A stretch of DNA of 64,000 nt, from the NCBI GenBank assembly GCA_023657425.1, contig JAGTJW010000002.1:486431-550430 (forward strand). Direction: 5' to 3'. Positions 5,988-43,714 of the stretch are shown here, one piece after another. The DNA is from Ideonella sp. WA131b. GTDB lineage: Bacteria; Pseudomonadota; Gammaproteobacteria; Burkholderiales; Burkholderiaceae_C. Position 1 is the stretch's first letter. Each line of letters begins with the position of its first letter. Under the pieces are notes generated by a model. It did no database searches, was not told the DNA's origin, and saw only the letters and a program-made list of their open reading frames with translations. The position numbers and the translations under genes were made by a program.

Positions 5988-7508
<1,521 letters not shown>

Positions 7509-24551: not shown

Positions 24552-24552
24552 T

Positions 24553-24648: not shown

Positions 24649-24848
24649 TCCGCTGCGTTCCGCCAACATGCCTCCTCACTGCTTGGCCGACGCTTTGACG
24701 GCAATCGCTCAGGCCGAATCCCGAGCGATTGCCTCCCATCAGCATCGCGTCCGCGCTCACCAACAATCGCGCCCAAGCCTTTTGCATGCTGGCTGATATG
24801 CGCCTGCTCGTCCCGGCCCATCGACGCGGCGTGCCACAGGACGCAAGC

Positions 24849-25651: not shown

Positions 25652-25670
25652 AAGGACATCTCTCAACGGA

Positions 25671-25689
25671 TGTATGACAATAGCATACA
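25671..25689. promoter_or_regulatory. Operator palindrome of the GNAT/DUF1778 pair
   Basis: TGTATG (25671-25676), 7-base spacer, CATACA (25684-25689), 20 bp upstream of the antitoxin ATG. It is AT-rich for this genome and overlaps a plausible -10 (TATTGT on the minus strand), as expected for RHH autorepression. Confidence 0.6.
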
Positions 25690-25801
25690 AGGCCGCGCGG
25701 CGCCACGCTCCTGGCATGCCCATCGCCTACGACGAGCGCCGTGCCCTGACTTCGTTCGGCAACAGCTCGCCCAGCCTCACACACCGCACCGGATTCCGAC
25801 C

Positions 25802-27577: not shown

Positions 27578-29885
27578 GCCGCGCCAGATCGTCGAGGTCG
27601 GCCCTTCGTTGCGCGACCCTGCGCTCGTAGCTTGCCTGGTTCTTGGTGCACACCAGCACATGCGGGCTGCCCTTGCGCTCGGTGCTGCAGTCGACGTCAT
27701 GCCGGCCCTGACGGATCGAGTCCTGGACGTGACGGCGATCGGTCTCGCGCGCCTTGAAGCGCCAGACCTCCTGTTCAGCACTCTGCACGAAGCGGCTCAG
27801 GGCCAGGCAGTGCTCGCAACGGCAGCTCATCCGGGCCTCGCGCCGCCAGTCGGCAGGCGGTGCCAAGTCCAGCGAGGACCGTGCCCGCAGGTGGTCCAGA
27901 GCAGCCACCCGCAGCCTCAGGCAGGCCGGCCGGTTCAGCTGCGCCGGCCGGTCGGCGAGCCGACGCAAGGCCGGAACGATGACGGCATCCATCCCATAGG
28001 TCTTGGGCCAGGCCAGCCAGTGCGTCACAGCCTTGTCGGCCAACGCGGCCAGGCCCGCAGGCCCCCCGAAGTCCAATGCGCGCAGCGTGTCGTGGACCAC
28101 GCCTGCATCGACGCGTTCGCGGCGCCACTCGTCGGCCTGCGACCTGGGTCGCGCCGGATCGCCCGGCATGGCATCGAGCAGCGCCTGGGCTGCGCCCAGC
28201 ACCTGCCCCCGCCAAGCTGAAACGGCGGCAGCGCGTGCCAGCAGGTCAGCGCAACCGCCGATGTGGAGATCGGCATTGCCTTGCACCACGGCCAGCAGCA
28301 GCGAACCGATGCGAGGGACCGGCAGCAGCTTCAGGGCCTGCACCAAGCCCGCGTTGTCGCCCACCGCATAGCCACCGGCCGCAACGATGTTGGCCAGCAT
28401 CGATTCGATGTGCTCGCGATCCTGCAGACGCACCAGTTGCGACAGCACCTTGCTCTCGGCGCCCGGCCCATCGCCCACCCGACGAGCGGCATGCACGGGC
28501 CAGCTCGCCAGCATCTCTGCCGCCAGATCGTGGGCCTCGTTCCGGGCGGCGTGACCCGGCTCGGCTCCGCTGTCGATCCAGGCTTTGACCAAGCCGTCCA
28601 GGGCCGGCAATGAAGCCGCGAAACCCGCCCGTGCGATCAACCGCAGCCTCTGCCCACGCGGCCACAACACCAGGGCCGCCCGCTGGTAGCTGCGCTCGAA
28701 CGAGGCGCCTTCGTTGCCTGTGGCCTCGTGGAAGTGCTGCTCGTCCGGCTCCATGTTGGCCAGTGCATCTGGCGGGCAGACCTCGCCTTCGTTGAACGGC
28801 AAGGTGCCCAAGGGCGCCACACCGCCGTCGGGCCGCCTCCAATCAGACAGGGTCAAGGAGCGATCGAAAACCTCGGCCACCCTGAATTCGTCATTGTTCT
28901 CGTCATCGCCGCCTTCCTCATCATTGTCGTGGTAGCGGCTGCGCCAGCGTGATCCGGAGTCGCCGTTGTACTCCGCTGCACCACTCTCTTCGATGCGCAG
29001 CAGCGCCACGTGGAGATCGCAGTCGGCACCGCCAGCGGCCGTGGTCAGCACGGTGGCAGCCGCGGCATCTGCGCCCTTGAGCGCCGCAAACGACAGCTCG
29101 GCCGGCGTGTAGGCGTGAGCCAGCGGGTAGACCACCTTGAGCGGCCGATCCTTGTCGAGTCGTGCCGGATCTTCGCACCAACGGCGCAACAAGCGCCCCA
29201 AAGCATCCGTCTCCTTGTCGTAGGACGGTGGACGGGGCAAGCGGCCGCGCCCCGTGCGCCGCAAGTTGTAGACGAGCACCAGCCGGCACCCGGAGTCGAT
29301 GGGCAGCACCTCGTGGACGCAATCGGCATAGAAGGCGGCCCAGGCAAGCTCGGACACATCAGCGCAGAGCAGCTCGAGACGGGCTTCGCGCCCGCGATGA
29401 CGGATCACCAGTTCACCGCCCGCATGAATCGACGGCAGCGCGACGATGAGCGTACCGAACATGCCAGGCGACTTTTCGGTATCGCGATGCTCAAGGAAGA
29501 AGCTGCCCTCGTCGTAGACGAGCAGCTTGTACAGTTCGGCCTCGACGCCGACACCTGCGCCGAGACCCACGGCCGCGCGTTCGACGATGCCCTCCAGCAT
29601 GGCCGGCCAGTGCCTGCTCTGGATGCGCACGCGGTCGGCGCCGATCTGCCATGTGCGGCGCACGGAAGTGTCGACCAGTGTGTCTGCACCACGGCCGTAG
29701 GGCGCGCGTTCAGCCGTCGCGATGAGTTTCGCGGCCTGCGCCGGCAGCAACGGCAGGGCAAGCGGGCCGATGCCCTCAACCTCGATCAGCGGAAGATGCA
29801 AGGCGCACTCGCCAGCCGCAAAGAAGTCGCCTGGCGTATGCACGGTATGCAGGACGGCCGCCAGCGCGGCGTTGATCGAATCCAT
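27567..29885 (-). CDS. Large 2OG-Fe(II) dioxygenase-domain protein
   Basis: 772 residues from ATG 29885. The N-terminal part (about 60-210) is a prolyl-4-hydroxylase-type double-stranded beta-helix with the iron ligands H133 and D135 (FFLEHRDTEK) and H191 (ADCVHEVLP), and the 2-oxoglutarate-binding R201 (GCRLVLVYNL). A highly acidic linker (DNDEEGGDDENNDE) follows. The remaining about 400 residues are helical and unrecognised, with a Cys cluster MSCRCEHCLAL near residue 695 that could bind metal. Protein substrates are typical for the family; the substrate here is unknown. It is flanked by toxin-antitoxin-like genes and an integrase remnant. Confidence 0.85.
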   Translation of the reverse strand: MDSINAALAAVLHTVHTPGDFFAAGECALHLPLIEVEGIGPLALPLLPAQAAKLIATAERAPYGRGADTLVDTSVRRTWQIGADRVRIQSRHWPAMLEGIVERAAVGLGAGVGVEAELYKLLVYDEGSFFLEHRDTEKSPGMFGTLIVALPSIHAGGELVIRHRGREARLELLCADVSELAWAAFYADCVHEVLPIDSGCRLVLVYNLRRTGRGRLPRPPSYDKETDALGRLLRRWCEDPARLDKDRPLKVVYPLAHAYTPAELSFAALKGADAAAATVLTTAAGGADCDLHVALLRIEESGAAEYNGDSGSRWRSRYHDNDEEGGDDENNDEFRVAEVFDRSLTLSDWRRPDGGVAPLGTLPFNEGEVCPPDALANMEPDEQHFHEATGNEGASFERSYQRAALVLWPRGQRLRLIARAGFAASLPALDGLVKAWIDSGAEPGHAARNEAHDLAAEMLASWPVHAARRVGDGPGAESKVLSQLVRLQDREHIESMLANIVAAGGYAVGDNAGLVQALKLLPVPRIGSLLLAVVQGNADLHIGGCADLLARAAAVSAWRGQVLGAAQALLDAMPGDPARPRSQADEWRRERVDAGVVHDTLRALDFGGPAGLAALADKAVTHWLAWPKTYGMDAVIVPALRRLADRPAQLNRPACLRLRVAALDHLRARSSLDLAPPADWRREARMSCRCEHCLALSRFVQSAEQEVWRFKARETDRRHVQDSIRQGRHDVDCSTERKGSPHVLVCTKNQASYERRVAQRRADLDDLARLKA

Positions 29886-30073
29886 GATCGGCTCCCTCAT
29901 GACCGACAGTGTGCACGGTGTCGTGCGAGTCGCACTCGGTCGGCGCTACCGCACCTGGTGGTCGGAGCCACCTGAACTGTTCGCCAAGGCCCTCCGTCGA
30001 GCAGGTCGCGCTTGCTGCGCCTCACGCCAGCAGCTTCAATTGAATCGACATCAGCGCATCGATGGAGGAACGC
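29886..30073. other. Intergenic region between oxygenase and integrase remnant
   Basis: 188 bp between divergent genes; it should carry the oxygenase promoter. No repeat or hairpin stands out. Confidence 0.4.
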
Positions 30074-30442
30074 ATGGGCAGGAAAGGCACCGGTGTCGAG
30101 ACCCGCGGCAAGGCCATCTGGATCCAGTTCAGCCTGAATGGCGAGGTCGTGCGCCAAACGCTCAGGCGTGACGGCATGGCGACGCCGCCGTCAGCAGAGA
30201 ACCTCAGTGAGGCCAAACGACTCGCCGCTGAGATCCGCAGCCGACTGGTGGCCCTCATCGGCCTCATGGTGGCCCTGACGGGCCGGCGGCGCCTGTCGAG
30301 CCGGCATGATGTCTGCGGCTCCTGCGGCTCAGCAAGGCTGGTGCCGCTCAACAGTCCAGCCGGCCAGCGCATCGCCAAGCGCCAAGCCCCACAACAACGA
30401 AGGCCCGCTGCGTGCGGGCCTTCTGAATCTTGGGGTGGCTGA
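30074..30442 (+). pseudogene. Truncated tyrosine integrase (arm-binding domain only)
   Basis: The start MGRKGTGVETRGKAIWIQF and later GEVVRQTL and AKRLAAEIRSRL match the DUF3596/arm-type DNA-binding domain of phage-like integrases. After about residue 60 the sequence leaves the family (Arg/Ser-rich), and the catalytic R-HxxR-Y domain is absent. A terminator hairpin (30399-30423) and the second direct repeat follow at once, as at the end of an intact integrase gene, so an internal deletion removed the core of the gene. The element can no longer excise by itself. Confidence 0.7.
30399..30423 (+). terminator. Hairpin after the integrase remnant
   Basis: GAAGGCCCGC (30399-30408), loop TGCGT, GCGGGCCTTC (30414-30423); a perfect 10-bp stem followed by TGAATCTT. 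Confidence 0.65.
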
Positions 30443-30659: not shown

Positions 30660-31688
30660 CTAAGGCTTGCCTGGTGGCCCGTTGACGGCACTCCGTAGTC
30701 CTGCCACCAACTTTCCGATGCCGATGACGATGCCGTCGACCTCCGACGTTGAGACCGTGATCCGCTGCCCAACCTTGTAGGTCAAGTCGCCCGACTCGTT
30801 GATGTATCGCTGATCCACGATGCCATCGCTGTGGGCCAGCAGGTGCCGCTTCTGGAACAGCCGCCTGAGTCGCTCCAGGTCTGAACTGCCGAGGATATCG
30901 ACATACGCAACGCCGACCCGCGCCTGCCAAAGCTCGCTGCCCTGTGCGAGTCGCTGAAAGGCATTCATCGGCGCGGGAGTTGCAGGCGCCGTCGATGCAT
31001 ACAGCCCCTCGCAGCACCGCTGGAACGCGGTCACACCATCCTGCAGGCATGACTCGATCAACGACCGGCACATCAGCTCGGCTTCATCCCTGCCGCCCAC
31101 CGCCGCGATGGCCTGGCGCACGACTTCGACGTTGTCCTTCTTGGCCCTGATCTTGCGCAGGGAGTCATCGAACATGCGATCCACGGAGCTGTGGCCGCAC
31201 GCCGGGCAAAAGTAGGCCGAGCCAATCACCGCGAACCGGCAACTGCACTTCTCGCACGCGATCTCGAGCTCCATTGCTGCCGACGCAGCCGCTGGAACCC
31301 TGTACGGCGTGAAGTGCGGTGCGCCGCCCACCTTCATCGACATCGAGATCAGCGAGTTCCTTGGCTGCCGCCCGTTAAAGGCCCTCGCATCCGCCCGCAT
31401 CGCGCCGTCGATCGTCGATTCAATCACCCTGCGTGCGTGCCGCTCGGCATGTTGAACCTGGGCCTTGGTGAACCAGCTCTTGGCTGGCGCCGCGTGACCA
31501 CACATCGGACACCAGACGCCTTCGTCGCGGCAGATGTTCTTCCAGTCTTCGTCCTTGATCTTGAACTGGAACTCGCAGTTGGTCGACGGGCACTCCTTGT
31601 CGATGTAGCCCTTCTCGTCACTGTCGATGGGGACGGTAATCGAGCGGCGCTCGAGTGCGCGCAGTTCTCGCAACATGTTGTCGAACAT
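30660..31688 (-). CDS. Zinc-ribbon protein with HEPN-like C-terminus
   Basis: 342 residues from ATG 31688 (MFDNMLRELRALERRS). Two zinc-ribbon-like modules are seen: CPSTNC...CPMCGH near the N-terminus and CEKCSC...CPACGH near residue 165. The C-terminal part contains LRRLFQKRHLLAHSDGIVDQ, where RHLLAH fits the R-x4-H signature of HEPN domains, followed by a small beta segment (GQRITVSTSEVDG). HEPN proteins are often RNases of defence or toxin systems; activity here is inference. No upstream partner is coupled to it; a terminator at 31708-31742 separates it from the next gene. Confidence 0.65.
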   Translation of the reverse strand: MFDNMLRELRALERRSITVPIDSDEKGYIDKECPSTNCEFQFKIKDEDWKNICRDEGVWCPMCGHAAPAKSWFTKAQVQHAERHARRVIESTIDGAMRADARAFNGRQPRNSLISMSMKVGGAPHFTPYRVPAAASAAMELEIACEKCSCRFAVIGSAYFCPACGHSSVDRMFDDSLRKIRAKKDNVEVVRQAIAAVGGRDEAELMCRSLIESCLQDGVTAFQRCCEGLYASTAPATPAPMNAFQRLAQGSELWQARVGVAYVDILGSSDLERLRRLFQKRHLLAHSDGIVDQRYINESGDLTYKVGQRITVSTSEVDGIVIGIGKLVAGLRSAVNGPPGKP

Positions 31689-31707
31689 AGGACCTCTACA
31701 CGGCACC

Positions 31708-31742
31708 AAAACAAAGAGGGGCACCGGTTCGCGGCGCCCCTC
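31708..31742 (-). terminator. Rho-independent terminator
   Basis: On the minus strand, GAGGGGC and GCCCCTC close an inner CCG/CGG stem, followed by TTTGTTTT. It ends transcription of the 44-residue gene before the HEPN-like gene. Confidence 0.8.
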
Positions 31743-32159: not shown

Positions 32160-32822
32160 TCATCGTTCCTTCAGTGCGGACAGATAGGCGGTGGCAACTT
32201 GGACGCAGTGCTCCAGGCTCGGCTGGTACCCGGTCGCTGCGATCGCCTCAAAGGTCGCCACGAACCCCGCACCTGGTTGCCCGATCTGCTCGAGGAACCG
32301 GTCTCGGTGCCGCATCAGGAAAGGCCTGGCAGCCGCCAGCGCTTCCGGCTCTCGCTCGACCACCATGGACAGGTCGAACAGATCACGCGCGGTTGCCCGG
32401 TCGCCGCGGTGGTACATCTTCTTGGCGATCACCTCGGCAGCCGTCTCGACACGCACCGGCCGCCCCTGAATCTCCCACCGCTCCCATGCGACGTCGGTCA
32501 GGTTCGGCGCGGCCACGAAGTCGACCTCACCTTCCTCGAACTGCAGCTTGACGAACGAGCCAGGCATCTCCGTGTACTCCTCGGTCAGTGATGCCGCCGT
32601 GTCGCTGAGCCGGGGCGTCACGTAGCCGAGGTACTGCGGGTCTGGCACGAAGATGTCGATGTCCTTGCTGAGGCGATGTCCGTACCTGAACATTAGGACG
32701 GTTCCGCCTCCGAAGGTCCAGAACGGATCCGCCAGACCCCCATGGAGCTGGATGTCGTCGACCAGCCGCAGCGCTCGCTGGAACAGCACTTCCCAGGGGC
32801 CAGCCGGCAGCGGCTTCATCAC
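32160..32822 (-). CDS. AbiEii/AbiGii-family nucleotidyltransferase toxin
   Basis: 220 residues with the DUF1814/AbiEii nucleotidyltransferase signature: TFGGGTVLMFRYGHRLSKDIDIFV, giving GG and the catalytic D-x-D pair; VETAAEVIAKKMYHRGDRATARDLFDL follows, the helical part found in the same family. AbiEii-type proteins modify tRNA ends and cause growth arrest or phage abortive infection (family knowledge). It starts 7 bp after the XRE antitoxin stop on the same strand, giving a complete toxin-antitoxin module. Confidence 0.85.
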   Translation of the reverse strand: MMKPLPAGPWEVLFQRALRLVDDIQLHGGLADPFWTFGGGTVLMFRYGHRLSKDIDIFVPDPQYLGYVTPRLSDTAASLTEEYTEMPGSFVKLQFEEGEVDFVAAPNLTDVAWERWEIQGRPVRVETAAEVIAKKMYHRGDRATARDLFDLSMVVEREPEALAAARPFLMRHRDRFLEQIGQPGAGFVATFEAIAATGYQPSLEHCVQVATAYLSALKER

Positions 32823-32829
32823 GCCCTCG

Positions 32830-33357
32830 TCACGCCCACAAGCCTTGCCGGTGCACTGCCAGTGACCTGGCGAGCTTCGCGACGTTGCGCCACACAGCCT
32901 TGGGCGCCACGCCCTCGTTTGCGGCGGCTTCCTCCACGGCCATCACCACCAGCGGCACGGGCGCCTCGTCGAGCAGGTGGGTCAGATGGGCCGCGTAGCC
33001 CTTCGGCACGCTTCCGCAGACCAGCGCGTGGCCGAGCGTGTCGGGCGGCACCTCTTGGACATAGCTCACGCTGGCGTTCTTCGCCGCCATCCACAGGCCC
33101 CGCTTCCGGGACCGCGCCGCCTGGCTGGGCGGATCGAGGTCCAGCCCCAGCACCGACAGGAGCTGGGACACCCGGTTGAAGCCCAGGTCGCTTAAAGCGC
33201 CCGCCTCCAGGCCGACCAGCGTCTGCCGCGAGAGACCGCTCAGCTGCGCGAGCCGCGACTGCGTCAGTCCCAGCGCCTCGCGCCGCTCACGAATGATGGT
33301 GCCCAGGTTGGAGAGGTCCACGGTTTGGCTCTGAGAAATGTCGAATATTTTAGACAT
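32830..33357 (-). CDS. XRE-family antitoxin (copy 2, with toxin)
   Basis: 175 residues; HTH at about 15-75 (GLTQSRLAQLSGLSRQTL) plus the same C-terminal domain as the orphan copy at 24024-24551. The upstream nuclease gene ends TAG one base before its ATG, and the AbiEii-like toxin gene starts 7 bp after its stop, so it is the fifth gene of a compact operon. A short AT-rich dyad (GAAT...ATTC) at its 5' end, conserved in both copies, may be the autoregulatory site. Confidence 0.88.
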   Translation of the reverse strand: MSKIFDISQSQTVDLSNLGTIIRERREALGLTQSRLAQLSGLSRQTLVGLEAGALSDLGFNRVSQLLSVLGLDLDPPSQAARSRKRGLWMAAKNASVSYVQEVPPDTLGHALVCGSVPKGYAAHLTHLLDEAPVPLVVMAVEEAAANEGVAPKAVWRNVAKLARSLAVHRQGLWA

Positions 33358-33453
33358 TCTAGCGTATCCGGATTGGTCTAGCCAGACGCTCGCCAGCGGA
33401 GCGGCAGGTCGCTCGCTGCCCACAACCGTGACAAACGTGCTCGCCGTCGGGCC
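32830..33453 (-). repeat. Duplicated block, copy 2 (intact context)
   Basis: Partner of 24024-24648. Covers the antitoxin and the last about 95 bp of the nuclease gene. Here both neighbours (nuclease and toxin) are complete, so this is the likely parental arrangement. Confidence 0.75.
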
Positions 33454-33928
33454 AGCGCGGACGGTCGAGGCCATCAATCAGTCGCCGACGCCGCGCCGCA
33501 AGGGCATGAACCTGCTCGCGCGACATCAGCCTGACCGATCGCGCGATCAGTGGCGCGGAGTCCCGGCCAGGGATGAGCACGAACGCCTCGTCCGACACCG
33601 GGACCCCCAGGTCGTCCTCTACCGCCACACGCTGCGCCGAGAGTTGGATGACGTCCGACATCCTCACCACAGCAGTCGAACGCGTCTTCAGCTCGACCAG
33701 CACGACCAACCCGCTCGGCAGCCGATACGCCCTATCCACCCTGGCCACGATGGGCCAGTGGCTCGTCGACCTGAACTTCGACTCCACCCAGAGCAGTTCG
33801 GCATCACGCAGGACGGCCGGTCGCTGGCGCCATTCCGCGACGCGTGCGCGGCGCCAAAGAAGCCACCATGAAACTGCCAAGGCGACGGCCAGCACCAACA
33901 CCCACAGCCAAATCGATTCGAACGTCAT
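33359..33928 (-). CDS. Membrane-anchored PD-(D/E)XK nuclease-like protein, Cas4/RecB C-terminal half
   Basis: 189 residues from ATG 33928. An N-terminal membrane helix (IWLWVLVLAVALAVSWWLL, about 5-24) precedes a soluble domain with RecB/Cas4 motifs in order: VARVDRAYRLPSG (motif II Asp), VVLVELKTR (ExK, motif III), DVIQLSAQR (Q motif) and a C-terminal CHGCGQRATC (C-x2-C-x5-C, like the Fe-S ligands of Cas4). Motif I (G-x3-H) and the first Fe-S Cys of Cas4 are not in this protein but can be seen in the upstream gene. ATGA overlap with that gene. Confidence 0.75.
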   Translation of the reverse strand: MTFESIWLWVLVLAVALAVSWWLLWRRARVAEWRQRPAVLRDAELLWVESKFRSTSHWPIVARVDRAYRLPSGLVVLVELKTRSTAVVRMSDVIQLSAQRVAVEDDLGVPVSDEAFVLIPGRDSAPLIARSVRLMSREQVHALAARRRRLIDGLDRPRWPDGEHVCHGCGQRATCRSAGERLARPIRIR

Positions 33929-34395
33929 GGCCGACGCCTGGCAGACCATCGCCGCCAGCCGTGCGCCGCCCACCCCAGGATGCACTTCGTCATCCACAGC
34001 AACGGCGGACGGCCCAGAAGAACGCCGCAGAGGCGAGGGCCGGCTCGATAGTAGGCCGCCACCAGGCGTCGACCCCAAGGCCGCGGCCGCAGGACCGCAT
34101 CCCTGAAGTCGCGGAGGGCATCGGTCTGCCATGCGTCCCCGAAGACCATCGTCGCGATGAAGCATCGCTCGCCCGGTCGTCGGGTCGCCCCACCATCCGC
34201 GGCAGCTGCGCTGCGCCCCTCCTGCTCGAAACGCACATGGGCGGCGATACCCCGCTGCCGAGCCACTTCCTGGGCCGCACTCCGCTTCGCGCCGCGAATA
34301 GATTCGAGGACCACCAGACGCTCGCACCTGCCCATCTGTGCGAGCTCGGAAGCCCCCACGCTCCCGTCCCGGCGACGCCAGGCGCGCCTCCTCAT
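33925..34395 (-). CDS. CFI-box protein with Cas4 N-terminal-like motifs
   Basis: 156 residues from ATG 34395. The N-terminal part SVGASELAQMGRCERLVVLE and RGIAAHVRFEQE resembles the start of Cas4/RecB-like nucleases: a lone Cys in an (S/T)-x-L-x6-C setting and the motif-I G-x3-H. The C-terminal part CFIATMVFGDAWQTDALRDFRDAVL with GRRLVAAYYRAGP is the CFI-box C-terminal domain known from diverse bacterial proteins. Four-bp overlaps (ATGA) join it to the StbB/ParR-like gene upstream and the nuclease-like gene downstream. Confidence 0.7.
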   Translation of the reverse strand: MRRRAWRRRDGSVGASELAQMGRCERLVVLESIRGAKRSAAQEVARQRGIAAHVRFEQEGRSAAAADGGATRRPGERCFIATMVFGDAWQTDALRDFRDAVLRPRPWGRRLVAAYYRAGPRLCGVLLGRPPLLWMTKCILGWAAHGWRRWSARRRP

Positions 34396-34645
34396 GGCCC
34401 ACCCTGGTCATCGACGGAGGGCTCGAAGAGTCCGTTCGTGACCCCGTCCGCATCGCCGTCGAAGCCGATCGAGCCCGGCGTTTCGCTGAGGGTCTGCCCA
34501 GGGAGCTTCAGGAGACCTTGCTGGACCAGCAAACCGTCGTAGGCAAGCAAGCGCAGCCGGTTCACGCGCTTGGCGCCCTTGCGGAAGCGGATCAGTTCGT
34601 CGTACAGCCGCGGATGCTCGGCCCGTGTGGGCGCCGGTGCGAACG
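34392..34645 (-). pseudogene. 3' part of StbB/ParR-like gene split by IS21 element
   Basis: Minus-strand coding sequence entering from the IS boundary: FAPAPTRAEHPRLYDEL, then RFRKGAKRVNRLRLLAYDG, and a Gly/Asp-rich tail ending at TGA 34394-34392, which overlaps the ATG of the CFI-box gene. Codon use is clean. It belongs with the 5' part at 38050-38134: joining base 38050 to base 34645 makes one frame (codons for N, S, F across the joint). The rebuilt protein has about 112 residues, like the small partner that follows parM/stbA genes. Confidence 0.7.
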
Positions 34646-34741
34646 TGTTGAGTTCTGGCCGGTTTCGAAATGCTGAGGGGATCGCGGAGGGAGTGGCGTG
34701 ATGCCGGCGCTGACGCGGCACGCAGTGGATGCCGGCGTGCT

Positions 34742-35503
34742 TCAGATCTCGGCGTGTGACTGGCCGCGGTAGCTCTTGCCTTCGATCACGACGGTCTCGA
34801 CGTGGTGCAGCAGCCTGTCCAGGAGTGCCGAGGCCAGGGTCGCGTCGTTGTTGAAGATCCCGGCCCATTGCTTGTACGGGCGATTCGTTGTCAACAGCGT
34901 GGTGCCGCGCTCGTAGCGGTGGCTGATGATCTGGAACAGGCAGTCGGCGCCGAACTTGTCGATGGGCAGGTAGCCCAGCTCGTCGATGCACAGCACCTCG
35001 GGCTTGACGTAGGCTGCCAGCGCCCGCTTGAGGCCGCCGGCGGCCTGCGCGGTGGCCAGCGTGTTGATGATGTCGATGGCGCCGGTGAACAGCACCGAGT
35101 GCCCGCGCTGGCACGCTGCATAGCCCAGGGCCGTCATCAAGTGGCTCTTGCCCAGGCCGACGCCGGAGATGAACACCACGTTGGCGTGCCGGGCCACGAA
35201 GTCCAGGTGGAACAGGTTCTGTATCTGCGGCCGGTTGATCTTGGTGGGCCAGTTCCAGTCGAACTTGTCGATGGTCTTGAGCACGGGGAAGCGGGCCTGG
35301 CGGATGCAGCGCTGCACGCGTCGGTCCTCGCGCTGGGCGGCCTCGCCGTTGAGCAGCTCGGCGAAGTAGGCCAAGTGCGACCACTGCTTGTCGGCGGCGG
35401 CCTTGGCCAGTGGCTGGTAGTTCTCGCGCATGAACGGCAGGTTCAGCGCGGTGAGCTTGGCCTGCGCGGACAGGGCATCGGGGTGGGCGTGGCGTGCTCG
35501 CAT
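34742..35503 (-). CDS. istB: IS21-family ATPase IstB
   Basis: 253 residues from ATG 35503 (MRARHAHPDALSAQAKLTALN). DnaA/DnaC-like AAA+ protein that selects the target and stimulates IstA. Walker A GVGLGKSHL, Walker B VLCIDELGYLPID, sensor-1 LLTTNRPYKQW and the final arginine-finger segment LLDRLLHH are all intact. It starts 13 bp after the istA stop, in the usual istA-istB order. A longer frame starting at 35578 overlaps istA and is not favoured. Confidence 0.93.
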   Translation of the reverse strand: MRARHAHPDALSAQAKLTALNLPFMRENYQPLAKAAADKQWSHLAYFAELLNGEAAQREDRRVQRCIRQARFPVLKTIDKFDWNWPTKINRPQIQNLFHLDFVARHANVVFISGVGLGKSHLMTALGYAACQRGHSVLFTGAIDIINTLATAQAAGGLKRALAAYVKPEVLCIDELGYLPIDKFGADCLFQIISHRYERGTTLLTTNRPYKQWAGIFNNDATLASALLDRLLHHVETVVIEGKSYRGQSHAEI

Positions 35504-35516
35504 GGTTGTCGCTCCT

Positions 35517-36977
35517 TCACTCACGGTCGTAGATGGACAGGTCGGGCGCGGGGATCTCGATGTCGAGCAGGTCGGCACTGCGGGTGAGCTGCAGGGCGGC
35601 GGGCTCGGCCCCGATGCGCCGGCGCGCGGCCAGGATGTGGGCGATGTACTCGGCGCTGAAGGCCTGCAGCTCCAGACCGTCGTCGATGGCGCGCTCGACG
35701 GCCTCGCGGCCGTGCATCTCGGCCAGGGCGAGGATCTGGCGCAGGTGCACCCGGGCGTTCACACGCCGGGCCTCCAGGCCCTCGCGGTAGGCTTGGGCGC
35801 GCGGCGACAGGGCCAGGAACTGCACCAGCAGGCGTTGCTCGCGGGCGCTCTTGCGCTGCTGGGCGAGTTGCTGGGCGTGCTCGGCAAGCTCGAAGTCCTT
35901 GTTGCGCTGCATGCTTCGCGCGTGGAGCGCGACGAGTTGGTCGTGGGCATAGATGCACAAGCGGTCGGCCCAGGCCTTCAGGGTCAGGCGTTGACCCACA
36001 TGGCGCGAGGGCACGGAGTAGGTGTTGGAGTCCAGCGCGACGCGGAACTGCTTGTTGACGCTTGCCGTGCGCACGCGTGCGAGGTCGAACCCGACGGGGT
36101 TGAGCCGCTTGAGGCGGGCGCGCTCTTCCTCGAACATGTCCACGGGTCGGCGCTGGGTGGCGCCGTGCACGCGCACGTCGGCCACCGTGTCCACCCACAG
36201 CTGCGCGGCGGGCTGCACGGCGCTGAAGTCGATGAACTCCTGGCCGGCCAGGAAGTTCTTCTTCACGTAACCCACGCCGTTCTCCACGCGTCCCTTCTCC
36301 CAACCCGAAGCCACGTTGCAGGGGGTGATCTGGAAGCCCCAATGGCGCGAGAAGTCGAGGTACTTGGGGTTGAACACCGGCGCCTCACCGACCAGGCGCT
36401 TGAGCACGGCGGACTTCAGGTTGTCGACCATCAGCCGCGCGGGCACTGAACCGAAGGCGGCGAAGGCGTTCTCGTGGCAGGCCAGGAAGAACTCCATCTC
36501 CTGCGACACGGTGAACTCCAGGTACATGCGCCGGCTGTAGCACAGCACCATCACGAAGAAGCTCAGGCGCCGGCGCGTGTTGCCCACGGCGACGGTGCCG
36601 AACTCACCCCAGTCGAGCTGCGCGCACTCGCCCGGCTCGAAGTCCAGCTTGAGGAAGGCCGGCCGCTGTCGCGGGCGGATGCGGTGCACGTAGTCCTTGA
36701 CGATGGTGATGCCGCCGCCGTAGCCGGCCTCGAGCAGCCGCTGGTAGATCTGCTGGGCGCTGTACGGGTGGGCGTCGAGCCAGCGCACGATCTGGCCCTT
36801 GAAGGCGTCGAGCTTGCTGGCGCGCAGCACGGCCTTGCGCGCTCGGAACTGTTCGGCCTGCGCCCACCGGGCGACGGTGCGTACATCCAGGCCCAGCGCT
36901 CGCGCGGTCTGCGCCACCGTGAGTTGCTGGCGCACCAGGTGGTCACGGATGCGGCAGTAGGTCTCGTAGTCAACCAC
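35517..36977 (-). CDS. istA: IS21-family transposase IstA
   Basis: 486 residues. N-terminal helix-turn-helix (QLTVAQTARALGLDVRTVARW), then the RNase-H-like DDE core: AQLDWGEFGTV (first Asp), RLMVDNLKSAVL (second Asp) and GRVENGVGYVKKNF (Glu), followed by the Mu-like C-terminal beta-barrel region (NKQFRVALDSNTYSVPSRHV). The frame is complete, so the element should be active. Its start overlaps the stop of the passenger gene upstream by 8 bp. Confidence 0.94.
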   Translation of the reverse strand: MVDYETYCRIRDHLVRQQLTVAQTARALGLDVRTVARWAQAEQFRARKAVLRASKLDAFKGQIVRWLDAHPYSAQQIYQRLLEAGYGGGITIVKDYVHRIRPRQRPAFLKLDFEPGECAQLDWGEFGTVAVGNTRRRLSFFVMVLCYSRRMYLEFTVSQEMEFFLACHENAFAAFGSVPARLMVDNLKSAVLKRLVGEAPVFNPKYLDFSRHWGFQITPCNVASGWEKGRVENGVGYVKKNFLAGQEFIDFSAVQPAAQLWVDTVADVRVHGATQRRPVDMFEEERARLKRLNPVGFDLARVRTASVNKQFRVALDSNTYSVPSRHVGQRLTLKAWADRLCIYAHDQLVALHARSMQRNKDFELAEHAQQLAQQRKSAREQRLLVQFLALSPRAQAYREGLEARRVNARVHLRQILALAEMHGREAVERAIDDGLELQAFSAEYIAHILAARRRIGAEPAALQLTRSADLLDIEIPAPDLSIYDRE

Positions 36978-37392
36978 GGCGCGCTCGAGCCTGCTGCAGC
37001 AGCGCGGCCAGGCTCACGGGCTGGCCGCCGGTGTTGGCCCCGGCAACGCCCGGTGGACGCGGCGCCGGGCGCTGCGCCGCCACGGTCCCCGGCAGGGCCA
37101 GCACCTGGTACAGCGGCGAGCGATAGGCGATGAGATCCAGCTCGATGAGCTGCTGGCGTGCCGCGGCGAACTGCTCGTCACTCAGGTGCAGCCGCCGGGC
37201 GAGCGTGGCCGAGCCGTAGTAGCTCAGGCCCTGGGCATCGGACACCGTGACCAGGAACAGGTACAGCGCCGCCGAGCGGGCCTCACAGCGGTCGATGAAG
37301 TGCTGCTGCACGAGCGCCTGGTCAACCCAGCTGAACTGCTCGGGGACCTGGCGCAGCCGCTCGGGCCGAAGTAGCTGCTTGATGGCCTTCAC
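36970..37392 (-). CDS. IS21 passenger protein, winged-helix-like
   Basis: 140 residues starting MKAIKQLLRPERLRQVPEQFSWVD. It includes a helical part SAALYLFLVTVSDAQGLSYYG and RRLHLSDEQFAAARQQLIEL that looks like a winged-helix DNA-binding domain, then a Pro-rich tail. The same protein is often found directly before istA in a subset of IS21 elements (family recollection), so I treat it as an accessory regulator. It overlaps the zinc-finger passenger by 71 bp and istA by 8 bp. Confidence 0.75.
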   Translation of the reverse strand: MKAIKQLLRPERLRQVPEQFSWVDQALVQQHFIDRCEARSAALYLFLVTVSDAQGLSYYGSATLARRLHLSDEQFAAARQQLIELDLIAYRSPLYQVLALPGTVAAQRPAPRPPGVAGANTGGQPVSLAALLQQARARRG

Positions 37393-37879
37393 CGCACCTC
37401 CCGTTGATCACGTCGCGCCCAAGTTGTACGAGGCGCCGGGTGGTGCTGGCCATGTCATCTTGTAGCGCCGGCTGGAACAGATGGGCCACAAGCCCCGCCA
37501 GCAAAGGCGATTCGGCGATCAAGAGATCTTGTAACGCCACGGTCGGGGGCGCCCCGGGAGCCTCGACACGATTGGCCGATTCCTCAATCGAATCAGGCAC
37601 TTGCAGCGGCAAGAGATCTTGTAACGCCCGCGGCGGGCGCACCCGGTCGCAGCTGTAGCCGGGATGCGCGGCGCGCCAAGCCTGGACGCGGGCGACGTGC
37701 ACGGGGCCGCTGAAGTAGTCGCGGTTGGATGGCTTGGACAACCAGGCGGCCTGGCTGGCTGCCTTGCTCGCGCGCCGGCAATCGACGGCGCAGCAGTAGC
37801 GCTGACGTTCACCGCTGCGATGGTCGGGGAGGAAAAACTCCCCGCACGACATGCACTTGCGCTGTCCCGCCTTGGCCAT
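37322..37879 (-). CDS. IS21 passenger protein with zinc-finger-like N-terminus
   Basis: 185 residues from ATG 37879. The N-terminus (CMSCGEFFLPDH, then RYCCAVDCRRASKAASQAAWL) has a C-x2-C...C-x4-C zinc-binding pattern, and NRDYFSGPVHVARVQAWRAAHPGY follows. The central part contains two ALQDLL repeats, and the end LVAHLFQPALQDDMASTTRRLVQLGRD is helical. Proteins of this form accompany some IS21 elements. The start is chosen because residues upstream of it are Arg-rich and non-coding in character. Confidence 0.75.
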   Translation of the reverse strand: MAKAGQRKCMSCGEFFLPDHRSGERQRYCCAVDCRRASKAASQAAWLSKPSNRDYFSGPVHVARVQAWRAAHPGYSCDRVRPPRALQDLLPLQVPDSIEESANRVEAPGAPPTVALQDLLIAESPLLAGLVAHLFQPALQDDMASTTRRLVQLGRDVINGRCGEGHQAATSARAAAPGPRAVQLG

Positions 37880-37976
37880 CGTCGCTCCCCAACGAACCCG
37901 TCGAGCGCGACAACCACCTCGAGCGAACACTCGTCGGCGCAGAGTCTGAAGAAGAAGGAGAACGGAGCTGAAGAAG

Positions 37977-38010
37977 ACCGTCAGAGACGGTGATCCGAAG
38001 AAGACGGATC
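37977..38010. repeat. Two adjacent stem-loops near the IS21 right end
   Basis: ACCGTC-AGA-GACGGT (37977-37991) and directly GATCCG-7-CGGATC (37992-38010). They lie between the terminal repeat and the first passenger gene, so they could be leader hairpins or transposase sites. Confidence 0.5.
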
Positions 38011-38049
38011 AGCAAGAACACGCACGTTCAGACCGGCTGAAAGAAGACA

Positions 38050-38134
38050 AATTCAAGCCGGCGCCCACAGCCCGCTCCAGCTTGAAGACCAAGCGGATCG
38101 GCAGCGGCTCCTTGGGCAATGGACTGATGGTCAT
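38050..38134 (-). pseudogene. 5' part of StbB/ParR-like gene split by IS21 element
   Basis: ATG 38134 within ATGA overlapping the end of the parM-like gene; reads MTISPLPKEPLPIRLVFKL, then ERAVGAGLN, up to the IS boundary. Continued by 34645-34392 (see that entry). As it stands, translation runs into the IS end and stops at 38009 after 41 residues. Confidence 0.7.
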
Positions 38135-39171
38135 GCTGCACCTCCATGCTCGCTGGCCGCGCGGTCTCGCTCTGCCGCCATCACGCTTCGGGCGTAGTTC
38201 TGCCCTGCCAACTGGAACCCGCGCACGTTGGCGAACATGGGCTCCTTGACCTCGTGGATCCGGTGCCTTGGAAACGCTGCCTTGACCGCCTTGCGGAAGA
38301 GGAAGGCGCCGCCACCCACGAGGATGATGTTCTGCAGACTGTGCGGCGACTCGATCCACTCCTTCATGCTCGACACGGCCTGCTCCGTCACGCTCTCGGC
38401 CAACGGCAGCAGTCGCTTGAGGTCGTAGGGTTTCTGGAAGATGACGGGCGCCTTCCCCGTCCGCAGCGCCATGTCGATGGCGTCGAGATCGCGGAAAGGC
38501 GTGCCGATGTCCTTGGTGATCTCGGCGGCGAGCAGTTTCAGCACGTCGGCGACGCCGCGATTCACCGAGTGGCTCTGCTTCTGCACCAGGCGCATGCCCT
38601 GGGCGACCAGCCAGTCGAAGGTTCGCGCGCCCGGATCGATGATCAGGCTGCGCTCCTTGGCGATCTCCCCCAGCTTGCCGTGGGCGTGCGCGTAGTAGGC
38701 CAGCGCGCCCTGCGGCTGGGCGACCGCCAGCGTACGCACCACGAAGATCTTTTTGCCGCCGCCGACATCGTGCTCCCCCGTCATGACCCGCTCCAGGGCG
38801 GCCTTCTTCACCGCGAACAGCGCCACCGGAAGGCCGACGACCAGCAGGTCGATCTGGCTCTGCCGCATCGAACGCAACGCGCCTCGCAGCAGCGCCATGT
38901 ACTCCGGCGATTCGATGTAGTCGTCGTGCAGCTGCGTGGCACGGAAGGTGTCTGCCGCCAGCCGCACCTCGGGGCCAACTTCATAAAAGAGCGACCCGAC
39001 CGGGATGAACATGGTCTTGGCCCCATCCCCGCCGGGCCAGAGTGGTTGCCCATTGCTGGACGGGTAGGCCAGCGACGGGAAGCTCGCGCAGCGGATCTCG
39101 CTGTCCGCCGCGCCGATGACAAACTTGGTGTTGCCGGAACCGACATCCACCGCCCTCACGATCAGGTTCAT
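38131..39171 (-). CDS. ParM/StbA-like actin, PRTRC-system protein D type
   Basis: 346 residues from ATG 39171 (MNLIVRAVDVGSGNTKFVIG, the actin phosphate-1 loop). Further motifs are LLVVGLPVALFAVKK, LIIDPGARTFDWLVAQG (phosphate 2), SHSVNRGVADVL, and NIILVGGGAFLFRKAVK (adenosine motif). The order and length match plasmid actins that push replicons apart, and the sequence around QKQSHSVNRG and EVKEPMFANVRGFQ resembles PRTRC protein D. It heads a minus operon: StbB/ParR-like (IS-split), CFI-box protein, Cas4-like nuclease, XRE antitoxin, toxin. Iteron-like dyads lie upstream at 39279-39352. No ParB/ThiF-type PRTRC genes are seen. Confidence 0.88.
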   Translation of the reverse strand: MNLIVRAVDVGSGNTKFVIGAADSEIRCASFPSLAYPSSNGQPLWPGGDGAKTMFIPVGSLFYEVGPEVRLAADTFRATQLHDDYIESPEYMALLRGALRSMRQSQIDLLVVGLPVALFAVKKAALERVMTGEHDVGGGKKIFVVRTLAVAQPQGALAYYAHAHGKLGEIAKERSLIIDPGARTFDWLVAQGMRLVQKQSHSVNRGVADVLKLLAAEITKDIGTPFRDLDAIDMALRTGKAPVIFQKPYDLKRLLPLAESVTEQAVSSMKEWIESPHSLQNIILVGGGAFLFRKAVKAAFPRHRIHEVKEPMFANVRGFQLAGQNYARSVMAAERDRAASEHGGAA

Positions 39172-39278: not shown

Positions 39279-39352
39279 GGTGTCACTGCGCTGGCACTGC
39301 ACTGAACTTCGGGTGACACCGAGAGGGCGCTTCGGCCGCGTGGTGTCACCAC
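39279..39352. repeat. GGTGTCACC iteron-like sites upstream of the parM-like gene
   Basis: Three related sites: GGTGTCACT (39279-39287), GGTGACACC (39312-39320) and GTGGTGTCACCAC (39340-39352, a perfect odd palindrome), spaced 33 and 30 bp, plus weaker GGTCACACT and GTCACCC traces after them. They lie 108-181 bp upstream of the parM-like ATG, the place expected for a centromere/operator bound by the small partner protein. Confidence 0.5.
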
Positions 39353-40207
39353 GGTCACACTGGAAAGTCACCCGTCAACCCCGTCCCGCGGCTTGTCCGT
39401 CTTCACGAGGCACGCCCCGCAAAGACCGGTGCCACCCTTGTCGGGGTACCTGAGGCGGCAGCCTTCGCTGTCAACCCCGCGCCAATGCTGGCGATCTTGG
39501 CCATTGCCACGCTAGATCGGCCCTGCCCCCGAATCGCGCGCCGTCAACTGCCCGCCCCAAGCGACGGCCTTTCCGGCGCCTTGCGGCGGCAGCTGCGCCC
39601 GCGGCCTTGACCATGGGTGGCGCCGCGGTTTCCACTGTGGGCTCCCGAGGGCCCCTCGCCCGCTCCGTCCTCTCGTAGAAGACGAGCACAACAGGCGTCG
39701 CAGTCGTTACCTGCCTCGTGTCTTCAACCGAAGCTCCCGTCCCGAACGGGTGGCGCGACCGGCATCGACCTCCAGAAGGATCGACGCCGCCAGCGTGCCG
39801 AGCCCTCCCCTGTCGCAGTGACCTGCCCGGTCCAAGCCAGCCGCATCCTTGTGATGACGGCTGGGCGCTCCAGACGCGCACCGGCGCAGCAGAACCCCGT
39901 GGCGGCACCTGATGCCGCGCACCGTTCCCGCCAGCCCTTGAGCACGCGCATTTGCGCATCGTGCGGCGTGATGGCCTCCATGAGGCTCCTTGCACGACCT
40001 TCGCTCATCAACTCGACACCGCCCTGGACTCTCGGTCAGGGGTGGACCCATGCGAGTGGCCGGCGCTGCACACCAGGCCTGATCCACCGAATGACCCAGG
40101 GCTCGACCCTGGCGTCGATGTCGCACCCAGCCCCGAGCGGGGTGGACATCACCACTGTCGTCGTGTCGCAGAAATGCGCAGACGGCCTGGATCAACACGT
40201 TTCTATT
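39353..40207. other. 855-bp region without a clear gene; possible decayed ORF
   Basis: No intact gene is convincing. On the minus strand, residues from about 40011 (MMSEGRARSLMEAITPHD, then VLKGWRERC and SGAATGFCCAG) look like coding sequence. A second frame (TRQVTTATPVVLVFYERTE, then MVKAAGAAAAA, ending at 39471) continues in a similar style. Together they may be one decayed gene of about 180 codons with an indel near 39735. I recognise no family. Confidence 0.3.
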
Positions 40208-40362: not shown

Positions 40363-42099
40363 ATGGCATCCCGCACAGGAACCGCTCACGTCGTCACCAC
40401 CAAGCGGGCGTACAAGGACAAGGTCTACTTCACCCACCTGCTGCGCCGCAGCTACCGCGAAGACGGCAAGGTCAAGAACGAAACCCTGGGCAACCTGTCC
40501 CACCTGCCCGATGCGCTGATCGACATCATCCGGCGCTCGCTGCAAGGCGAGACCTTCGTTCCCGCCTCCCAGGCCTTCGAGGTCGTGCGCTCGCGCGCCC
40601 ATGGCCACGTGCAGGCCGTCGCTGTGGCCATGCAGCGCCTGGGGCTGGCCTCGGTTGTCGCGTCGCAGCCCAGCCGTGAACGCGACTTGGTGCTGGCCAT
40701 GGTGGCCTCGCGCATCGTGCAACCCGACACCAAGCTGGCCACCTCCAGGCGCTGGCACAGCTCGACCCTGGCCGAGGACTTCGGCGTTGCTGACGCCACC
40801 GAGGACGATCTGTATGTCGCCATGGATTGGCTGCTGACGCGCCAGGACGCCATCGAGAAGAAGCTCGCCGCACGTCACCTGCGCGAGGGTGCATTGGTGC
40901 TGTACGACTTGTCTTCGAGTTACTTCGAGGGCAGCACCTGCCCGTTGGCCAAGCGGGGCTACAGCCGCGATGGCCGGCCCGGCACGTTGCAGGTCAACTA
41001 CGGGCTGCTCACCGATGCGCGTGGCTGCCCTGTGGCGGTCTCGGTGTTCGAGGGCAATACGTCGGACAGCCTGACCTTCCTGCCCGCCGTGCAGCGTGTG
41101 CGCGAGCGCTTCGGCCTGGCGCAGGTGGTGATGGTGGGCGACCGCGGGATGGTGTCGCAAAAGGCCATCGACGAGCTTCGCGGCCAAGGCGGCATCGACT
41201 GGATCACAGCGCTCAAGAGCGTCTCGATCCGCTCCCTGGTCGAGCAGGGCCATTTGCAGCTGGGCTTGTTCGATCAGCGCAACCTGGCCGAGATCACGTC
41301 GCCCGACTATCCCGGCGAGCGCCTGGTAGCCTGCCGCAACGACGCCCTGGCCAGGCTGCGGGCGCACAAGCGTGAGAGCCTGCTGCAGTCCACCGAGGCC
41401 TTGCTGGGCCTGGTCAAGGCCAGCGTGGATGCGGGCCGGCTCACCGGGCAGGACAAGATCGGCGTGCAGGTGGGCAAGATCATCAACCGCCACAAGGTGG
41501 CCAAGCACTTCGAGCTGAGCATCGGAGATGCGGCGTTGAACTGGGCGAGAAGGCAAGACGCCATCAACGCCGAGGCGGCGCTGGACGGGCTGTATGTCAT
41601 TCGCACCTCACTGGACGCCAAGCGCATGGGCGCACCGGATTGCGTGCGCAGCTACAAAGCCCTGTCCAACGTGGAGCGGGCGTTCCGATCATTGAAGACG
41701 GTGGACCTGAAGGTGCGGCCCATCCACCATCGGTTGGCCGACCGGGTGCGCGCGCACATCCTGCTGTGCATGCTGGCGTTCTACGTCGAGTGGCACATGC
41801 GCGAGGCCTGGCGCGAGCTGATGTTCGCCGACACCGATCAGGCCGCCAAGGCCACGCGCGATCCAGTAGCGCCAGCCATGCGCTCGGCTTCGGCAAGCGC
41901 CAAGGCTGCATCGAAGGTGCTCGAGGACGAGCAGCCTGCGCATAGCTTCGCAACCCTGATGGCAGAGATGTCCACCCTCGTGCGCAACACCTGCCGCGCA
42001 CCGAGCGCTGGCGCAGATGCGCCAACCTTCGAGGTGCTCACCACCGCCACGGCACACCAACAGCGCGCCATGGCGCTGATACAGGCCATCCAGCCGTAG
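40363..42099 (+). CDS. IS1634-family DDE transposase
   Basis: 578 residues. The DDE core is visible as LVLYDLSSSYFEG (first Asp), VVMVGDRGMVSQKAIDEL (second Asp) and the YREK-like VERAFRSLKTVDLKVRPIHH near residue 450 (Glu region), followed by the conserved RVRAHILLCMLAFYVEWHM helix. The N-terminal part YKDKVYFTHLLRRSYREDGKVKN with ETLGNLSHLP is typical of the family. The frame is intact. Confidence 0.94.
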   Translation: MASRTGTAHVVTTKRAYKDKVYFTHLLRRSYREDGKVKNETLGNLSHLPDALIDIIRRSLQGETFVPASQAFEVVRSRAHGHVQAVAVAMQRLGLASVVASQPSRERDLVLAMVASRIVQPDTKLATSRRWHSSTLAEDFGVADATEDDLYVAMDWLLTRQDAIEKKLAARHLREGALVLYDLSSSYFEGSTCPLAKRGYSRDGRPGTLQVNYGLLTDARGCPVAVSVFEGNTSDSLTFLPAVQRVRERFGLAQVVMVGDRGMVSQKAIDELRGQGGIDWITALKSVSIRSLVEQGHLQLGLFDQRNLAEITSPDYPGERLVACRNDALARLRAHKRESLLQSTEALLGLVKASVDAGRLTGQDKIGVQVGKIINRHKVAKHFELSIGDAALNWARRQDAINAEAALDGLYVIRTSLDAKRMGAPDCVRSYKALSNVERAFRSLKTVDLKVRPIHHRLADRVRAHILLCMLAFYVEWHMREAWRELMFADTDQAAKATRDPVAPAMRSASASAKAASKVLEDEQPAHSFATLMAEMSTLVRNTCRAPSAGADAPTFEVLTTATAHQQRAMALIQAIQP

Positions 42100-42183: not shown

Positions 42184-42463
42184 ACTGACCGAGCTGACCG
42201 AAGACCTCGAACGAGATCACCGGACAGCAAAGCCATGGGTGGGTGTGGCGCCAGAAGAGATCGATCGCCGCACCGACGTTTCAGACGATCTCCGCCACCG
42301 TGGGCTTGCCAGGAATCGGCCCCGGTGACGTGCCTGTCGGCGCCTCTGGGCCTTCGATGGGCTTCGATGGGCATCGATGGATTCCTCCAACCCCGGTCGC
42401 CTTCCCGACCGCTCATCCACCGGCGCGCTGTTCGGGCAGTCGCCACCCTCCAGAAAATCCACC

Positions 42464-43714
42464 ATGCCCCGCATCCGCCGTGAACAACCCTCGCGCCGCC
42501 GCCAGCAGGCGGCCGCCTCGCGCAACGAACTGCGCGACGCGCCCACCCTGCCCTCCTCATCCACCCGCCCTTCCGGGACCACCCCGAAGACATCTACCAG
42601 CCCCGGCCGCCTCCACGGCCAGGACGCCCCGCGGCGGCAACGCTGGGCGGGCAAGTCACCCCAGCAGGTGCTGGACATGTACCCGCCGGGCAAGACGCCC
42701 GTGAACCGGGTGGTGGACGTGCTGATCGAGCTGTTCAACCCGCTGCACACCGCGCTCGAGAAGACCGTGTCGCACAAGACGCGCTACGAGCGCGCCCACT
42801 TCCTGCGACGCTTCTTCCGCGAGCTGCACACCGACGCCGGCTTCAAGCTGGCGCCCGACCCGCGCAACCTCGGCCAGCGGCATGTCCAGGCGATGGTGAA
42901 GGTGTGGCAGCGTCGCAAGCTTTCGCCGGGGACCATCCAGACCTACCTGAGCTTCCTGCGCGGCCTGGCGATGTGGCTCAACAAACCGGGCTTCATCCGC
43001 AAGCCCGAGCACTACGGGCTGACGCCCGAGGAGTACGAGCGCCACGAGAACGCCCAGCACGACAAGAGCTGGAGCGGCAACGGCATCGACGTGGAGGGCT
43101 TGCTGTCCCAGGTCTCTGCCTGCGATGCCCGCATCGGTGCGTCGATGCGCCTGATGGTGAAAGTCGGCCTGCGGCGCAAGGAATCGGTGATGTGCCGTCC
43201 CTACGCCCATGTCCACCCCTTCGAGGAGACGGGGCTGCCAGTCGAAGAACGGAGGGCGGATCGGTATCTGTGGACGAAGGGCAAGGGAGGCCGCCCGCGC
43301 TGGCTGGCGCTGGCCACCAGGGAGCAGCAGGCAGCCATCGAGCATGCGCGCAGCGTCGTCAGCGGCCACGATGCACACATGGGGGCGCCGGATCTCGACC
43401 TGAAGTCCAACCTACGGCGGCTGGACTACGCGCTGCGCAAGTTCGGCCTGACGAAGCGGGAGAGCGGAACCACCGGCCACGGCGCGAGGCACGACCACCT
43501 TCAAGGCGAGTACGAGGAGAGGACGGGCACGCGAGCGCCGATTCGCGGCGGCGAGCCCGTTGATCCGGCACTCGACCGGCAGGCGCGACTGCACGTGGCG
43601 AGCATCGCGGGTCATGCGCGCCTTCGCTCGGCCGGGGCATACGTCGGTGCAATCCGACGCGAGCCCGCCGACAAGGCCGACCCGGCCAAGGGCGACCCAA
43701 GCCGGCCCGAATAG
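42464..43714 (+). CDS. Tyrosine recombinase / phage-type integrase
   Basis: 416 residues from ATG 42464 (MPRIRREQPSRRRQQAAAS). A basic N-terminal tail, a core-binding domain (LSPGTIQTYLSFLRGLAMWL) and the catalytic domain follow. Candidate active residues are the Arg in LMVKVGLRRKES, the HxxR of TGHGARHDH, and GHARLRSAGAYVG with the His and nucleophile Tyr. It sits at the edge where accessory genes end and metabolic genes begin, so it may have inserted the second block. The ATG at 42377 is in frame but adds Ser/Pro-rich residues. Confidence 0.85.
   Translation: MPRIRREQPSRRRQQAAASRNELRDAPTLPSSSTRPSGTTPKTSTSPGRLHGQDAPRRQRWAGKSPQQVLDMYPPGKTPVNRVVDVLIELFNPLHTALEKTVSHKTRYERAHFLRRFFRELHTDAGFKLAPDPRNLGQRHVQAMVKVWQRRKLSPGTIQTYLSFLRGLAMWLNKPGFIRKPEHYGLTPEEYERHENAQHDKSWSGNGIDVEGLLSQVSACDARIGASMRLMVKVGLRRKESVMCRPYAHVHPFEETGLPVEERRADRYLWTKGKGGRPRWLALATREQQAAIEHARSVVSGHDAHMGAPDLDLKSNLRRLDYALRKFGLTKRESGTTGHGARHDHLQGEYEERTGTRAPIRGGEPVDPALDRQARLHVASIAGHARLRSAGAYVGAIRREPADKADPAKGDPSRPE

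Follow-up and report, generated by a model that had tools for sequence, protein, structure and literature searches.

Cas4-family nucleases (TIGR00372) are all stated to have four conserved cysteines, and a Cas4 clade on conjugative plasmids of Burkholderiales was reported by Hudaiberdiev et al. in 2017 (PMC5704561, passages on Cas4 clades). Among segregation systems of mobile elements, srpMRC of the SXT/R391 integrative and conjugative elements (ICEs) was shown to stabilize the ICE, and a related ParMRC is present on IncA/C plasmids (Carraro et al. 2015, PMC4489591, passages on srpMRC). A third relevant system is the PRTRC cassette (TIGR03734 to TIGR03736 and TIGR03739). Here, we analyzed a stretch of 64,000 nucleotides from Ideonella sp. 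WA131b (contig JAGTJW010000002.1, positions 486,431 to 550,430), referred to below as the window and numbered from its first letter. It contains a gene group in which a tyrosine recombinase and a PRTRC_D-family actin are accompanied by two genes, termed subunits A and B, that match complementary parts of a Cas4 nuclease. A preliminary description of this DNA had taken a combination of segregation, nuclease and addiction functions, possibly a maintenance or defense system of an integrative element, to be undescribed. The literature we searched, which left out most subscription journals, yielded no earlier description of a segregation-plus-nuclease group with an integrase and no account of a split Cas4.

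Subunit A (33925 to 34395, minus strand) is a protein of 156 amino acids (aa) in which a Cas4 N-terminal motif (C24 and G49-x3-H53) is followed by a CFI-box C-terminal domain (NF041770, 56.4 bits, cut-off 40), in agreement with the CFI-box label this gene had been given. Subunit B (33359 to 33928, minus strand; 189 aa) begins with a hydrophobic helix and contains a PD-(D/E)XK core (D65 and E79xK81; PD-(D/E)XK match of 29.8 bits) and a cysteine motif, C166xxC169x5C175. In a comparison with fetched Cas4 sequences (13 of 14 were used; L102, which had been read on the wrong strand, was left out), full-length B matched Cas4 profile columns 44 to 186 of 205, and the start of A matched columns 6 to 53. 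The two proteins thus match complementary Cas4 parts, and the earlier proposal of a nuclease split over two genes held up. When A was first compared with Cas4 by profile, its score was no better than that of shuffles; in the column-shuffle test, none of 400 shuffles of A scored as high as A itself. The part of Cas4 matched by A includes the first Fe-S cysteine and the G-x3-H motif, both absent from B, and across 63 diverse A sequences (49 from paired loci and 14 from plasmids) this C, G and H were the only invariant residues. B provides three Fe-S cysteines and A provides one; combined, all four Cas4 positions are aligned, and no single chain has four. The four cluster cysteines are therefore divided between two genes, with the break after the first cysteine/His motif, and the N-terminal half has so far been filed as CFI-box or hypothetical protein.

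The predicted structure of B alone was confident, and a fold search recovered, among the families listed, the Cas4 fold from about Cas4 residue 66 onward. B thus resembles Sso0001 (4ic1) and the Cas4 proteins of 7mi4 and 8d3l in fold, D/ExK residues and cysteines, and A resembles them in the first Cys and the G-x3-H motif. For A, comparison of its sequence with solved structures gave no credible match, and the quality of its model did not permit a fold search. The pair differs from described Cas4 proteins in consisting of two polypeptides, in the hydrophobic N-terminal helix on B and in the optional CFI-box on A. In addition, the 65-bit cut-off of TIGR00372 was not reached by B of the window (15.8 bits) or by B of the plasmid regions L089 (29.4 bits) and L132 (20.4 bits). 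Two sequences, P0193 and P0196, covered both halves of a 345-aa A+B query and were considered as natural fusions; they were judged to be frameshift joins because the CFI-box interior was, by eye, out of frame.

To define relatives, one genome per species was scanned with the nuclease profile, which gave 59 loci that are by definition selected by the nuclease. Both halves scored above the limits in 49 of them, and these were kept for the pairing analysis; the other 10 were not. Every one of the 59 nuclease frames had the D-x12..14-ExK signature, and 58 had C-x2-C-x5-C, the exception being the broken frame in L034, and a hydrophobic N-terminus was present on B in 48 of 48. Reciprocally, the CFI gene was used as the query against 399 genomes of the order, with at most nine first-look candidates scored per genome. 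Matches were obtained in 12 genomes; the N-terminal part was covered in three of them (the window's own genome, G514 and G574), and the nuclease adjoined in all three, two of which were new. The other nine genomes held 11 loci with the CFI-box only, and neither the N-half nor the nuclease was present in the 3.2 kb covered at these. When 300 genomes drawn from the order were searched with the nuclease, the window's genome was the only one to contain it at full length (five others gave weak partial matches), and the element is rare on this evidence.

We consider it probable, with some reserve, that A and B join as one inner-membrane Fe-S nuclease that trims or degrades DNA ends for maintenance of the element. 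In such an enzyme, A would contribute one residue of the active site as well as the fourth ligand of the cluster, and neither half would work alone; the Fe-S cluster would be bridged between the two chains at the inner membrane, where the N-terminal helix of B would serve as anchor. The activity would be that of a Cas4-type exonuclease, and it would serve the element rather than the host, in DNA processing during replication, segregation or transfer. A heterodimer is suggested because the Cas4 residue set is incomplete in each chain by itself and because the chains travel together. The prediction of a membrane-anchored, heterodimeric Fe-S nuclease has good support at the sequence level; for the pair as a whole we infer a role in maintenance or transfer.

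It is improbable, in our view, that A and B are mere neighbors that share no enzyme, in which case B would be a small PD-(D/E)XK nuclease complete in itself and the CFI-box protein would have another job. B alone does have the D, E/D and K residues and three cysteines, its model is confident by itself, and the halves are separated by another gene in plasmid regions L092, L123, L126, L127 and L133 and lie kilobases apart in L091 and L132. However, the invariant residues of A align to precisely those Cas4 residues that B lacks, the four conserved cysteines are said to be common to all Cas4 family members (PMC5704561, same passages), and in the reciprocal search the N-half came with B in three of three cases, whereas the 11 CFI-box-only loci were without B. 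Judging from the sequences, the CFI-box itself is optional and the Cas4 motif of A is not, since L090, L128, L091 and L132 encode the N-half in a small frame that lacks the CFI-box.

The 59 loci were titled almost throughout as proteobacteria, with hosts including Piscinibacter sakaiensis 201-F6 (formerly placed in Ideonella), Rubrivivax, Caldimonas, Dechloromonas, Accumulibacter, Achromobacter and Thauera; the only other title was that of L028, a 3.1-kb contig from a bin titled Candidatus Bipolaricaulis. Gene order was constant wherever enough sequence was available: the integrase on the opposite strand, then actin, small partner, CFI-box gene and PD-(D/E)XK gene. Among loci with enough sequence, the CFI gene was found upstream of the nuclease in 54 of 54, the partner in 52 of 52 and the actin in 46 of 46, and the tyrosine recombinase of the window had a divergently oriented homologue in 41 of 41. 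Decayed copies were seen in L043 and L066. In 49/52 loci, the partner had a potential start codon placed exactly at −4 of the actin stop. At the partner-CFI joint the offset was −4 in 25/55 loci and within −40 to +15 in 28, with none in 2; at the CFI-nuclease joint it was −4 in 32/56, the other 24 falling within −40 to +15, a range of little discriminating power at this GC content. The tight junctions exceed chance.

In the window, all six frames and five junctions of the preliminary description were verified at their positions: ATGA overlaps at 38134-38131, 34395-34392 and 33928-33925, a 1-nt gap between nuclease and XRE gene (TAG-A-ATG, 33361-33355) and 7 nt between XRE gene and the GTG of the AbiEii gene at 32822. 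The description had read these six genes as one coupled maintenance unit, in which segregation, nuclease and an XRE/AbiEii addiction pair share a transcript. Six genes are tightly packed in the window, and many close relatives likewise have XRE beginning at +1 from the stop of the nuclease; yet within 1.6 kb downstream of the nuclease, XRE was found in only 18/58 loci and AbiEii in 11/58 (L021 and L050 also have AbiEii, outside this count), and in L012 a different, 465-aa-type gene comes after XRE. We therefore regard the six-gene unit as very unlikely. The adjacency of homologues argues strongly for a four-gene core, whose order is constant in the loci with enough sequence, and against the larger unit; the toxin-antitoxin pair is accessory, given its presence in a minority of loci.

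Sequence divergence was examined for the core genes. Relative to L016, L017, L019 and L023, dN/dS was 0.16 to 0.19 for the CFI gene and 0.24 to 0.29 for the nuclease gene; relative to L009 and L010 it was 0.40 to 0.73, but dS there was just 0.016 to 0.062. Both genes appear to be under purifying selection. In the 43 of 59 loci with all five genes, all ten pairwise comparisons of their distance matrices showed correlation beyond 500 permutations, the highest values being those of actin-partner (0.81), integrase-nuclease (0.74) and CFI-nuclease (0.67) and the lowest that of actin-CFI (0.29). Between the window and L010, dS was 0.55 for the actin gene (38131-39171), compared to 0.05 for the CFI and 0.06 for the nuclease gene. 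From this contrast we infer that the operon recombines between modules, with a putative recombination joint inside it, between actin and CFI/nuclease genes. Within the same operon, actin and partner seem to form a segregation module of their own that is inherited along with the rest.

Relatives of both halves were also widespread on plasmids. In tblastn searches, the window nuclease matched 1,114 plasmid records, the window CFI protein 64 and the N-half of pAQU1 1,092; matches of the latter and of the nuclease were mostly from Klebsiella, Salmonella, Escherichia and Citrobacter. The totals 1,092 and 1,114 are separate lists, not paired record by record, and one such plasmid was read (L132, typed IncC and picked since both listings named it), in which both halves were present. 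Among 40 of the 64 CFI and 40 of the 1,114 nuclease records, regions were picked by one half, and both halves were found in 15 of 15 (B of L123 by annotation only). Of three plasmids picked by their actin, L087 had the pair and L086 and L088 did not. By our own grouping there are about eight settings: MPF_F plasmids, beside TraG-N and M48 (L089 and L094); ParM/StbA, mobI and S49 (L092, L126 and L133, plus L127 with mobI and S49 only in view); a DHH phosphoesterase (L122); pTK9001 (L123); VWA/DUF3150 (L093 and L134); Pseudomonas megaplasmids (L124 and L125); the vicinity of topA (L090 and L128); and IncC and pAQU1 (L132 and L091). The N-half of L132 has mobI on one side and the replication initiator on the other and is close to ParM/StbA, with B about 5 kb further (6830-7351). 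The terminal cysteine motif of this B is C-S-C, and the cluster motif thus seems to be reduced in the IncC lineage.

The L089 protein, from pALIDE201, is annotated as Dna2/Cas4, and the Burkholderiales plasmid clade of Hudaiberdiev et al. may be the same clade as the present nuclease; the relevant passages of that article (PMC5704561) do not contain the word "split" and mention no partner protein. Mobile elements are known to carry Cas4 genes, according to the same passages, and this, together with the Cas4 fold, would suit an anti-CRISPR-adaptation or spacer-diverting Cas4. Neither cas1 and cas2 nor other adjoining cas genes were named in the annotation tables of the fetched plasmid regions, however, and of the explanations weighed here this one seems the most remote.

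The main rival to an enzyme serving the element is a membrane-bound exclusion or defense nuclease, which would benefit the resident element by destroying phage or plasmid DNA on entry. The hydrophobic N-terminus in 48 of 48 proteins would fit such a role, a Cas4-like nuclease was found to lower transfer or maintenance of RSF1010 in Synechococcus (PMC10653904, in the part concerned with this nuclease), and the same island contains AbiEii and a match to the PADLOC candidate PDC-M14A (56.1 bits). On the other hand, PADLOC gave just weak Cas1g/Cas4 matches for B (at most 19.2 bits) and none for A, and a backbone task fits better with neighbors that are constant on the integrase/actin side and variable downstream. 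We regard the defense role as rather unlikely. The element-serving role is preferred because the genes stay beside integrase and actin while the downstream genes change, because plasmid copies adjoin mobI, the replication initiator, topA or TraG, and because the nuclease query had no match in phage records; none was found in viral contigs either. A wider version of this reading, which we put forward tentatively, is that the two-chain Fe-S/nuclease site belongs to a heterodimeric, membrane-anchored Cas4 in the backbone of large plasmids and integrative elements, distributed from PRTRC-D elements to IncC, that couples DNA-end processing to actin-driven segregation and conjugation. If the pair works as one enzyme on such plasmids, a biochemical function that can be tested is assigned to a so far unnamed part of a plasmid backbone of medical importance, and the question why ParM-type segregation operons of mobile elements contain a nuclease becomes accessible to experiment.

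The actin-like gene of the window (38131 to 39171, minus strand; 346 aa) matched TIGR03739 with 477.1 bits (cut-off 214.8) over profile positions 1 to 320 of 320, and ALP_N with 91.1 bits, confirming its designation as a ParM/PRTRC-D-like actin; it corresponds to PRTRC protein D. No second actin copy was found in the window's own genome. Unlike in the PRTRC cassette, ThiF does not reach its cut-off there (best match 25.9 bits, cut-off 144.75), although it scored above the cut-off in 9 of 15 genomes searched. CFI and nuclease genes are not known to be part of the PRTRC definition. As in srpMRC, a ParM-type actin and a small partner, DNA-binding in the case of srpMRC, lie near an integrase in an integrative element; in contrast, a nuclease pair is present here, and none is named in the srpMRC passages of Carraro et al. 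(PMC4489591). The small partner likewise differs in matching no family. Centromere-like repeats upstream of actin were short and weak in the six regions concerned. Two GGTGTCAC-type repeats, with similar ones in L016 and L019, are located at 39279-39362 upstream of the window actin and are a possible operator or centromere.

Next to the actin, where a ParR-type partner would be placed, lies a small gene with a possible start codon mostly at −4 of actin. The name StbB/ParR previously given to gene 2 is one by position only, since the partner of three intact relatives matched no Pfam or NCBIfam family. Nor is the operon intact in this genome: a 3,444-bp IS21-type insertion (34626 to 38069, minus strand) cuts gene 2 into a 5' fragment (38070 to 38134, minus strand) and a 3' fragment (34392 to 34625, minus strand), as delimited by blastn against L010. 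L010, whose nuclease is 95% identical to that of the window, has no insert in gene 2, and its uninterrupted stretch matches window positions 38227-38070 and 34625-34309 with a 5-base overlap. The insertion ends in perfect 12-bp terminal inverted repeats (TGTGGGCGCCGG) and is flanked by a 5-bp target duplication, GCCCG, at 34621-34625 and 38070-38074. Because of this break, the window copy of the gene group is probably damaged, and the downstream genes are probably uncoupled from the actin promoter. Besides istA (36977-35517) and istB (35578-34742), the insertion contains two small extra frames preceding istA (36970-37930); relatives of it with ∼67% DNA identity occur in plasmid records of Caballeronia sp. 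SBC1 and SBC2.

The tyrosine recombinase (42377 to 43714, plus strand; PF12834 30.2 bits, PF12835 27 bits) is divergent from the actin gene, and an IS1634-family transposase gene (40363 to 42099, plus strand; NF033559 326.3 bits) is inserted between them. Left of the integrase, relatives have RadC, DUF5983 and a ParB-like gene that scores under the PRTRC_parB cut-off, which suggests a larger element; its ends were not found. No island border was set from an unoccupied site, because only 3 of 30 family genomes (own included) had a match to the flanking M55 peptidase gene, the others with 34 to 36% identity. L014, L025, L033, L042 and L062 have an additional recombinase next to the integrase of the element, and the L025 copy matches XerC/XerD families.

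Downstream of the core, the accessory XRE-type regulator (32830 to 33357, minus strand) matched HTH_3 with 43 bits and the accessory AbiEii-like nucleotidyltransferase (32160 to 32822, minus strand) matched PF08843 with 70 bits (cut-off 22.5). The toxin gene of a type IV AbiE system is therefore present, and no AbiEi antitoxin was among the listed matches, the gene upstream of AbiEii matching XRE/HTH families. The second nuclease of this genome is a remnant only: at 24024-24726, a degraded copy consists of a nuclease-B C-terminus with stops (24568 to 24726, minus strand) followed by an open XRE gene. A 465-aa gene (22076-23473) follows this second XRE, the same XRE-plus-465-aa order as in L012. 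Elsewhere in the island, the PDC-M14A match is a zinc-ribbon-like protein encoded at 30660-31724, and a protein of 777 aa encoded at 27567-29900 weakly matches a 2OG-Fe(II) oxygenase. A GNAT acetyltransferase gene (24849-25723) adjoins a TacA-like antitoxin gene, likely forming a toxin-antitoxin pair. Finally, a fragment of another integrase with the Arm DNA-binding domain only (30062-30442) suggests that the island is composite.

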